From the NCBI RefSeq assembly GCF_009827435.1, contig NZ_WTYM01000033.1, positions 1 through 64,000 on the forward strand: a DNA stretch of 64,000 nt. Direction: 5' to 3'. This stretch comes from Croceibacterium salegens. GTDB lineage: Bacteria; Pseudomonadota; Alphaproteobacteria; Sphingomonadales; Sphingomonadaceae. Made by a program: the position numbers and the translations under genes. This document shows positions 53,510 through 56,095 of the stretch, one piece after another (positions within the stretch are counted from its first letter, which is position 1; every line of letters starts with the position of its first letter). The notes under the pieces are model-generated. The model was not told where the DNA came from. It did not search any database and saw only the letters and a list, made by a program, of their open reading frames with translations.

Positions 53510-53656
53510 TGTATATCCTCGAAACTGCCCGCGCCTGACGCGGGACTGAAAATCCGTGATGCTTGATGGGTGCCGGGCGCAAGCAAATCAAGGCCCGGAA
53601 TCAAGAGCGCGCGCGCCTTGCCACAGGGCAAGTGCGCTGTCAAAAGCCCGCGCGCC

Positions 53657-54994
53657 GTGAACAGCCATGACCCCATAGCCGCGCGACCGCGCCGTTTCGC
53701 CCCTTCCGGCCCGCTCAAGGGCCGAATCCGCGTGCCCGGCGACAAGTCGATCAGCCACCGCTCGCTGATGTTCGGCGCGCTCGCCGTGGGCGAAACGCGC
53801 GTTTCCGGGCTGCTTGAAGGCGAAGACGTCATGGCCACCGCCGCGGCGCTGCGGGCGATGGGCGCGACGATCGAGAATCAGGGCGACGCCTGGTCGATTC
53901 ACGGCGTCGGCGTCGGCGGGCTGCTGCAACCGGCGAGGCCGCTCGACATGGGCAACTCGGGCACCTCGACGCGCCTGTTGATGAGCCTCGTAGCCAGTCA
54001 CCCGATCAGCGCAACCTTCGTCGGCGACGCCAGCCTGTCGAAGCGCCCGATGGGCCGGGTAATCGATCCGCTGTCGCTGATGGGCGCGAATTTCGAGTCG
54101 AGCGAAGGCGGCCGCCTGCCGCTTACCGTGCGCGGCATCTCGCCCGCCGTGCCGATCGAATACCGCCTCCCGGTCGCCTCGGCCCAGGTCAAGAGCGCGG
54201 TGCTGCTCGCCGGGCTCAACACCTCGGGGATCACCAAGGTCATCGAACCTGTCCCGACGCGCGACCACACCGAACGGATGCTGAGGGGCTTCGGCGCCGA
54301 GTTGGAGGTATCCAACGACCTAGGCGAGCGCGTCATCACAATCCGCGGCGAGGCCGATCTCAAGCCGCAGGACATCGTGGTGCCGGGCGACCCCTCGTCC
54401 GCCGCCTTCTTCATCGTCGCCGCGCTTGTGGTTCCGGGCAGCGAGCTGACGATCGAGAACGTCGGCATGAACCCGACTCGCGCCGGCCTCGTCGGCGTGC
54501 TGCAGGCAATGGGCGGACGGATCGAGGTCACGAACGAGCGCGTGGTCGGTGGTGAGCCGGTCGCCGACCTGGTGGTGAAGCACTCCGAACTTTCGGGCAT
54601 CGAGGTCAATCCGGTCGTGGTGCCGAGTATGATCGACGAATTCCCGGTCTTCTTCGTCGCCGCCGCATTGGCCAAGGGGCAGACCGTGACCACAGGGCTC
54701 GACGAGCTGCGGGTCAAGGAATCCGACCGCCTGACAGCCATGGCCGAGGCGCTGACCGGCGCGGGCGCCCGGGTAGTCGAGCGCGAGGACGGTCTGGTCA
54801 TCGAAGGCACCGGCGGCGAACCGCTGCGCGGCACCACCGACAGCTGCACCAAGACTCACCTCGACCACCGCATCGCCATGGCCATGGCCGTCGCCGGCCT
54901 CGCCAGCCGCGACGGTGTGGAGGTGGACGACACCCGGCCGATTGCGACAAGCTTTCCGGCGTTCGAGGCGCTGCTGGCGGAATGTGCGGGTTGA
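53657..54994 (+). CDS. aroA: EPSP synthase (3-phosphoshikimate 1-carboxyvinyltransferase)
   Basis: A 445-residue AroA that joins shikimate 3-phosphate and phosphoenolpyruvate in the path to chorismate. It has [42 protein letters not shown] and [13 protein letters not shown]. The segments [14 protein letters not shown] and the Ala after NSGTS type are like those of class II enzymes, but I cannot assign glyphosate sensitivity. Start GTG at 53657 is the codon that best fits family length; the frame is open to 53570. Confidence 0.95.
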
Positions 54995-55017: not shown

Positions 55018-55106
55018 TCACCCCGGACTTGTTCCGGGGCCGGGCTTCCTGCTGGCCGACGTGACGCAAGAGGACAAAGCACTACCCCGGAACAAGTCGG
55101 GGGTGA
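55018..55106. repeat. Dispersed-type inverted repeat after aroA
   Basis: Two 22-base arms (55018-55039 and 55085-55106) are complementary with one mismatch and each is itself nearly palindromic around CCCCGGA/TCCGGGG. The 45-base centre holds no gene. It lies between aroA and the small membrane gene and could act as a transcription terminator or mRNA end structure. This CCCCGG-type palindrome resembles REP/ERIC-like elements of sphingomonads. Confidence 0.75.
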
Positions 55107-55124: not shown

Positions 55125-55469
55125 GTGAGTTTCGATCTCGCCAACCTGGCTGGCCTGCTCGGCGCGGGACTGATCGTCGTTGCCTACGCTTACAACACGG
55201 CCAAGGGCGAGCAGACGAACCCTTTCGTTCAGCACGGCCTCAATTTCGTCGGAGCAAGTCTGCTCATCGCATCACTGCTGGTCCACACCAACCTGCCCTC
55301 GTTGCTGCTTGAGGGTATCTGGGCCTGTGTCGCTGTCTGGGGGCTCGCGAAGGCGTTCTCGAACCACTCCCCCTCCCGCAAGCGGGAGAGGTCAGGGGTG
55401 GGCCGGAATGCCACCTATTCTGCTAGCCCACCATCCAGCCCCCTACCGCCTGCGGGAGGGGGAGAATGA
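55125..55469 (+). CDS. CBU_0592-like small membrane protein with repeat-derived tail
   Basis: A 114-residue protein. The first 83 residues have three hydrophobic segments (about residues 7-22, 37-55 and 58-77) with the CBU_0592-type pattern GLLGAGLIVVAYAYNT and NFVGASLLIASLL. The remaining 31 residues (SPSRKRERSG to PLPPAGGGE) are encoded by the palindromic repeat at 55367-55464 and look like the usual translation of that repeat. The stop overlaps the cmk start (ATGA). GTG at 55125. The original C-terminus is probably replaced. Confidence 0.75.
   Translation: MSFDLANLAGLLGAGLIVVAYAYNTAKGEQTNPFVQHGLNFVGASLLIASLLVHTNLPSLLLEGIWACVAVWGLAKAFSNHSPSRKRERSGVGRNATYSASPPSSPLPPAGGGE
55367..55464. repeat. 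Palindromic repeat inside a coding region, upstream of cmk
   Basis: Outer arms of 14 bases (55367-55380 and 55451-55464) are perfectly complementary, with an inner pair GGTGGGC/GCCCACC (about 55397-55403 and 55425-55431). The right arm ends in GGGAGGGGGAG directly before the cmk ATG. The whole element is read through in frame by the small membrane gene. Confidence 0.8.
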
Positions 55470-56095
55470 TCATCGCTGTTGATGGACCTACGGCCAGCGG
55501 CAAGGGCACCATAGCCCGTGCGCTGGCCGCGCATTTCGGGCTGCCGCATCTCGATACCGGGCTGCTCTATCGCGCGGTCGGCTATCAGGTTGGACTCGAC
55601 GGCGGCAATCCGGATGAGGCGGCGGACGCTCTCGCCGCCTGTGCGTTTCCCGACGCCCTGCTCGAAAATTCCGAACTGCGCAGCGAAGCCACCGGCGGGC
55701 TCGCGAGCCGAGTTTCGATCCATCCAGCCGTGCGGCAGGCTCTTTACGAGCGGCAGCGGCAGTTTGCACTGCAACCCGGGGGCGCGGTACTCGACGGACG
55801 CGACATAGGTACGGTCATTGCTCCCGAGGCCGAGGTGAAGCTGTTCGTCACCGCCTCGGTCGAAGCTCGCGCCGAGCGCCGTTTCCGCGAGATGCAGGCG
55901 CAGGGCCGCGCGGCAACGCTCGCCGAGATCGCAGAGGACCTGCGCCGGCGTGACGAGCGCGACCGCACACGTGCTACGGCCCCGCTGGTCGCCGCGCTCG
56001 ACGCGGTGCAGCTCGATACCTCCAGCCTGTCGCCCGACCAGGCGGTGGCGGAGGCCATTCGTATCGTCGAGCAGAAGCCCAACCACCACGCCTAA
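55466..56095 (+). CDS. cmk: Cytidylate kinase
   Basis: A 209-residue CMP kinase that makes CDP/dCDP from CMP/dCMP. It has the P-loop VDGPTASGKGTIARALA (residues 5-21), DTGLLYRAV and the DGRDIGTV motif. The ATG at 55466 overlaps the preceding stop (ATGA), and its Shine-Dalgarno GGGAGGGGGAG is the last part of the inverted repeat at 55367-55464. Length and motifs are normal. Confidence 0.97.
   Translation: MIIAVDGPTASGKGTIARALAAHFGLPHLDTGLLYRAVGYQVGLDGGNPDEAADALAACAFPDALLENSELRSEATGGLASRVSIHPAVRQALYERQRQFALQPGGAVLDGRDIGTVIAPEAEVKLFVTASVEARAERRFREMQAQGRAATLAEIAEDLRRRDERDRTRATAPLVAALDAVQLDTSSLSPDQAVAEAIRIVEQKPNHHA

Follow-up and report, generated by a model that had tools for sequence, protein, structure and literature searches.

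A dispersed palindromic repeat extends a small membrane protein and provides the putative Shine-Dalgarno sequence of cmk at an overlapping gene junction of Croceibacterium salegens

Rickettsia palindromic elements were reportedly described by Ogata et al. in 2000 and 2002. In the sections of the literature consulted, these are palindromes, 105–146 bp long in PMC2229807, that occur in frame in unrelated, often conserved genes (PMC2229807; PMC10969869), and enterobacterial RU/ERIC repeats can likewise remove a stop codon and add a C-terminal tail, as in amidase ECA3499 (Delihas, 2007; PMC2759123, text available in part). REPs with GTAG or CGTC tags are described in the accessible text of Di Nocera et al. 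(2013; PMC3733652) as short hairpins, often arranged as inverted dimers near gene 3′ ends; copies are found within ORFs and at ORF ends, among others in tRNA synthetase genes of X. oryzae, E. litoralis and S. alaskensis, and ORFs that flank a GTAG REP often take their stop codon from its terminus. As for repeats and translation signals, ORFs formed by BOX elements in pneumococcus are stated, in the part of the source consulted, to have no good Shine-Dalgarno candidates. Independently of repeats, ATGA gene pairs are translationally coupled, and removal of the Shine-Dalgarno sequence from five E. coli pairs abolished reinitiation in one, reduced it by 60–90% in three and left one unaffected; structures that hide a downstream start and are opened by translation of the upstream gene are also known (Huber et al., 2019; PMC6728339, sections consulted).

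The locus described here lies in a 64,000 nt stretch of the C. salegens genome, analyzed as a whole and hereafter called the window, and comprises the following features:

53570–54994: aroA, the 5′ neighbor of the CBU_0592-family gene.
55125–55469, + strand: gene for a CBU_0592-family small membrane protein (GTG start, 114 aa; NF047864, E 4.4e-16), its 3′ end extended by the repeat.
55359–55466, + strand: coding sequence of the 36 extra tail residues that follow KAF, made up almost wholly of the repeat.
55367–55464, no strand assigned: inverted pair of repeat units, a REP-dimer-like palindromic element of 98 bp (inverted arms; related pairs in the same genome).
55371–55403, + strand: left repeat unit, with hairpin 55371–55390 and inward GGGGTGGGC tail; 1 mismatch to the unit CCCTCCCGCNNGCGGGAGGGGNNNGGGGTGGGC.
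55426–55464, − strand: right repeat unit, inverted and more diverged; hairpin 55441–55460, found with one substitution; right arm 83% complementary to the left.
55454–55459, + strand: GGGAGG, candidate Shine-Dalgarno sequence of cmk, 6 bases before the ATG, in the right hairpin stem.
55466–55469, + strand: ATGA, in which the upstream stop and the cmk start overlap; 53 of the 109 other loci have a similar overlap, by ATGA or GTGA.
55466–56095, + strand: cmk, (d)CMP kinase, 209 aa (TIGR00017, E 2.1e-50; PF02224, E 5.1e-54).

In a profile search, the match to NF047864 spans residues 6–76 of the 114 residues of the CBU_0592-family protein; the frame continues across the whole repeat, copies of which encode about 33 of the last 36 residues, and its stop (55467–55469) overlaps the cmk ATG (55466–55468). 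Past residue 78 the tail has 36 aa, vs. 4–20 aa (median 9) in 72 other homologs found with phmmer, a set that includes a few loci twice. A first-pass annotation of this DNA had proposed an in-frame, repeat-coded tail that would be missing from the protein where the repeat is absent, and this agrees with the shorter homologs; conservation of the tail as protein without the repeat DNA was not seen among the homologs compared. It also placed the end of the repeat just before the cmk ATG, with an ATGA stop/start overlap, and indeed GGGAGGGGGAG (55454–55464), at the repeat end, stands one base 5′ of the ATG. The extra tail is probably neutral. The GTG start of the gene (55125) has no evident Shine-Dalgarno sequence, and in the same-genus genome G003 AAGGAGGAAAG precedes an ATG start.

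The outer arms at 55367–55380 (ctccccctcccgca) and 55451–55464 (tgcgggagggggag), read directly from the sequence, are perfect reverse complements (14/14), as previously annotated, and an inverted-repeat search lengthens them to 30 nt at 83% (55367–55396 and 55435–55464). The repeat unit has the structure CCCTCCCGC-NN-GCGGGAGGGG-NNN-GGGGTGGGC, and each half of the palindrome is one copy of it, in inverted orientation. This organization recalls the REPs of PMC3733652, although, as far as these are described in its accessible text, the unit CCCTCCCGCNNGCGGGAGGGGNNNGGGGTGGGC differs in lacking a GTAG or CGTC terminal tag and in having a 2-base loop vs. the 4–5 base loops of the CGTC families. It also resembles the Rickettsia palindromic elements, to which we liken it by the partial descriptions consulted, except that the copy examined here also forms the putative initiation region of the next gene. 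Conversely, the stop/start overlap and the location of a Shine-Dalgarno sequence inside the upstream gene are shared with the ATGA pairs of PMC6728339, but here a dispersed repeat is the origin of that sequence, which lies hidden in its palindrome, and repeats go unmentioned in the consulted sections of that paper. The words Shine, ribosome and start codon do not appear in the main text of PMC3733652, although the family could be in its figures or supplements; similarly, the accessible text of PMC2759123 does not contain Shine, ribosome binding, start codon or initiation, and a takeover of a Shine-Dalgarno sequence is not described there under those words. Among the open-access matches listed, no paper was found in which a repeat provides an essential gene with its Shine-Dalgarno sequence. 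We regard the case as genuine: the element belongs to a known kind, and the novelty lies at the translation signal.

We compared 110 cmk loci, including that of the window, of which four were fetched twice (L009/L122, L012/L142, L018/L133 and L020/L116). In 54 of them, the window and 53 of the 109 others, which lack the repeat, the stop codon of the CBU_0592 gene and the start codon of cmk overlap; in 19 of the 110, the CBU_0592 homolog lies upstream of cmk with a gap, and in 37 no CBU_0592 homolog was found upstream of cmk. None of the 109 other loci has the hairpin at the CBU_0592/cmk junction, and the insertion is therefore present in one locus out of 110. In G003, the protein ends in SGRSKA followed by a stop that overlaps a GTG start (GTGA), with ggacggagcaaggc before the start. 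Since the ATGA or GTGA overlap occurs in 53 of 109 repeat-free loci, including that of the same-genus G003, it does not require the repeat, and the earlier proposal of a gene fusion, or of a coupling, brought about by the insertion is not supported. The simplest reading of this comparison with relatives, notably G003, is that at a junction that already overlapped, the repeat would have taken the place of the final codons and of the native Shine-Dalgarno-like stretch.

The only Shine-Dalgarno-like sequence at a proper spacing for cmk lies within the repeat. Its duplex energy, −10.8 kcal/mol, is the joint second (with L118) of the 54 overlapping junctions, calculated with an anti-Shine-Dalgarno assumed as CACCUCCUUU because the exact pattern of the 16S 3′ end was not found in the draft genome. 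Conversely, the region has a predicted mean unpaired probability of 0.08, the joint lowest of the 54 junctions (with L076), because GGGAGG sits within the palindrome, and the predicted fold of the junction reaches −75.5 kcal/mol over 146 bases. Repeat-free junctions have other sequences upstream of cmk, in line with the first-pass annotation, and these are mostly weaker; several relatives show very weak matches, down to −0.4, and a strong Shine-Dalgarno sequence may thus not be needed at this junction. A dependence of cmk on the repeat is plausible.

Taken as a whole, we consider it probable that a palindromic repeat inserted at a pre-existing ATGA junction, replaced its native end and Shine-Dalgarno sequence, and left cmk more strictly coupled. 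A non-autonomous repeat, an inverted pair of hairpin units of about 33 bp, would have entered the CBU_0592-family gene at its 3′ end, swapping out its last few codons along with the native Shine-Dalgarno-like stretch, with no stop codon introduced before the pre-existing ATGA. While crossing the repeat, ribosomes engaged on the upstream gene would then melt the hairpin and terminate at the ATGA, where either these terminating ribosomes or newly recruited 30S subunits would start cmk via the exposed GGGAGG. Upstream translation should be needed to open the Shine-Dalgarno sequence because the site lies inside the palindrome, and cmk translation would thereby be more strictly coupled than in relatives. 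Against this mechanism, few ribosomes may arrive through the upstream gene because of its GTG start without an evident Shine-Dalgarno sequence. If the reading is true, it shows how a selfish repeat that lands where two genes already overlap can change, in a single step and without being lethal, the way in which translation of an essential gene begins.

A serious competitor, which we place somewhat short of an even chance, is that the repeat is simply tolerated at the overlap and that cmk is translated by Shine-Dalgarno-independent termination-reinitiation at the ATGA, GGGAGG being incidental because the outer ends of the copies generally carry it. The very weak matches among native junctions fit this reading, as does the E. 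coli pair that was insensitive to loss of its Shine-Dalgarno sequence, although, in the sections of PMC6728339 consulted, that pair was uncoupled in the authors' construct and the other four pairs lost 60–90% or all of reinitiation. The junction itself also argues against it, since the Shine-Dalgarno-like stretch of G003 is missing here and the repeat alone supplies one, at a 6-base spacing.

The position of other copies with respect to start codons bears on the same question. Outside the window, we retrieved 120 out of 122 clusters of the repeat, spread over 21 genomes; they come from the matches listed (e.g., 26 of the 65 sites of G129), plus one from the search of the window's own genome. 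A hairpin search of the clusters yielded 125 elements after six hairpin clusters within 250 nt of the end of a region had been dropped. Among the matches listed, 40 of 89 outward-facing called starts lie 3–20 nt from a repeat end, whereas uniform placement within these gaps leads one to expect 36.9 from a formula and 34.6 from simulation (highest value in 2000 runs, 47), and 8% of 20,000 placement simulations reach 40. Enrichment of the repeat beside start codons is therefore not clear, in agreement with a neutral insertion, and these figures give no evidence of selection for the domestication suggested in the first-pass annotation. In 53 of the 89 cases, the neighboring gene lies no more than 20 nt from the opposite repeat end, which indicates that placement near starts is mostly explained by tight gaps.

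We can only tentatively entertain, as a rather doubtful extension, that the repeat family is a portable two-ended ribosome-binding module, of which cmk and the CBU_0592 gene of G002 would be two independent products. With GGGAGG on the outgoing strand within a hairpin at each end, insertion before a start would install a strong but locked Shine-Dalgarno sequence, and the downstream gene would become reliant on ribosomes coming from the upstream gene. In G002, from the same genus, a repeat pair located one gene upstream extends AroA by 32 residues (SPSRLRERIGEGATTLGNTDPPPTPSASGRGE); the extended frame stops in an ATGA that also contains the start codon of the CBU_0592 gene, with GCGGGAGGGGAGA just before that codon. 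The outer flanks of the elements mostly start with G[AG][AG]. Adding the window and G002 to the 40 cases above, the Shine-Dalgarno-like match at the 42 near-start repeat ends, among the matches listed, derives from the repeat only in 23, from the repeat plus flank in 10 and from the flank in nine, although in three of these nine flank-only ("NATIVE") cases (L224, L269 and L270, d=19) the stretch is the repeat's own inward tail. The starts called elsewhere are provisional, and the count of 23 out of 42 depends on them, because our home-made gene caller missed the CBU_0592 gene and made one spurious call of 17 codons in the window. Median accessibility was 0.17 in the 23 repeat-supplied cases vs. 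0.41 in the 53 repeat-free cmk junctions (Mann-Whitney p 3e-7, a value that is only indicative because different genes and related sequences are compared).

Besides the window, the complete arrangement of a tail plus ATGA was found in G002 (a single locus, fetched as both L009 and L122), and reading the sequence adds a thiolase gene of G142 (L273), whose junction keeps a native-looking Shine-Dalgarno sequence. Read-through from the upstream gene into the repeat is not a general rule: among two-hairpin elements that lie outside genes and have a called start nearby, two were listed in which the frame of the upstream gene continues into the repeat, and none in which it extends as far as the start. 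Separately, copies occur just before a gene starting with MRYL (gcvPA, by reading) in five genera (L197, L213, L246, L259 and L293), and in all five loci a native Shine-Dalgarno-like match lies between the repeat and the start.

It is unlikely, in our judgment, that the palindrome acts mainly as an RNA element, through stability, RNase processing or attenuation, that lowers cmk relative to the upstream genes and has the tail and the Shine-Dalgarno sequence as side effects. The strong predicted fold at the junction and the joint lowest accessibility of its Shine-Dalgarno region would suit such a role, and the REPs of PMC3733652, which according to the accessible text lie mostly just downstream of genes, have been proposed as RNA elements; however, the upstream frame spans the whole palindrome, whose structure would be opened by its translation, and, as read from the sequence, there is no run of T 3′ of the palindrome.

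Allowing up to 3 mismatches, we found the unit 11 times in the genome of the window, once within the window itself, with the right unit of the palindrome outside this set; this is in line with the dispersed repeat that had been postulated, and copies are not confined to this junction. Of the 149 family genomes sampled, 57 carry the unit at up to one mismatch, with up to 65 sites in G129, and in a class-wide sample of 241 genomes it appeared in three, all among the four from the window's own family. Additionally, 24 plasmid records were matched at E up to 0.1, of which 22 are from Sphingobium, Sphingomonas or Novosphingobium. That the palindrome is an assembly or chance artefact, with unrelated GC-rich stretches complementary by accident, is extremely improbable: although the insertion is known from one genome, a draft of 63 contigs, the 33-base unit matches once in the window vs. 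none in 100 shuffles of it, the reversed pattern gave no match in the same genome or in 148 others, and G002 offers a parallel case in another assembly.

Two hairpins are present in 79 of the 125 elements (among the matches listed); in 57 of the 79 they form an inverted pair in which each unit has its inward tail. We found no RAYT-type transposase (Y1_Tnp, PF01797) in the genome of the window; Y1_Tnp, a profile broader than RAYT, was present in six of 15 repeat-bearing genomes and in five of 14 controls, and absent from the other nine repeat-bearing genomes, including G129 with its 65 sites. The absence from the window's genome and from these nine rules against a RAYT-driven REPIN. Likewise, the repeat is not specially open in all reading frames, with 290 of 474 frames open (61%) vs. 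0.61 in base-shuffled copies.

Among the matches listed, 19 of the 125 elements are inside called ORFs. Eight repeat-bearing ORFs, at least several of them cut by the fetched region, were scanned by profile; scores were above the curated cut-off for gcvPB of the window's genome (L198), valS (L304, with two copies) and an acyl-CoA thiolase (L273), and strong but below it for valS (L272), metH, pyruvate phosphate dikinase, biotin carboxylase and the ABC-F ATPase Uup. In-frame palindromes in core enzymes, best known from Rickettsia, thus recur in several genomes of the window's family, which is not that of Rickettsia. In the window's genome (G000:C46:241282-241375, L198), the same palindrome is in frame in gcvPB, spanning about 30 codons. 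The gcvPB linker was recovered in 10 of 15 loci, the five without the motif used being left out; palindromes occur in G000 and G001, and the other eight, including the same-genus G002, G003 and G004, are empty sites. The palindrome in the G001 linker is a different one, of CCCCTCCCCTTCAGGGGAGGGG type; the presence of different palindromes at one linker in G000 and G001, and of none in G002–G004, suggests that this linker is an insertion hot spot. Such natural filled and empty sites are available for studying hidden Shine-Dalgarno sequences and coupling.

In three genera (G113, G142 and G129), in-frame copies occupy one site of valS (L262, L272 and L304), and a second valS site has copies in L266 and L304, L262 and L266 being named by reading only; these shared sites are either old insertions or the result of repeated targeting. 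Finally, a second, unrelated palindrome lies at 55018–55106, between aroA and the CBU_0592 gene (TCACCCCGGACTTGTTCCGGGG..., arms of 30 nt, 87%); its TGTC-type end is reminiscent of the CGTC REPs in the accessible text of PMC3733652, and a similar stretch is found upstream of the CBU_0592 gene in G003.
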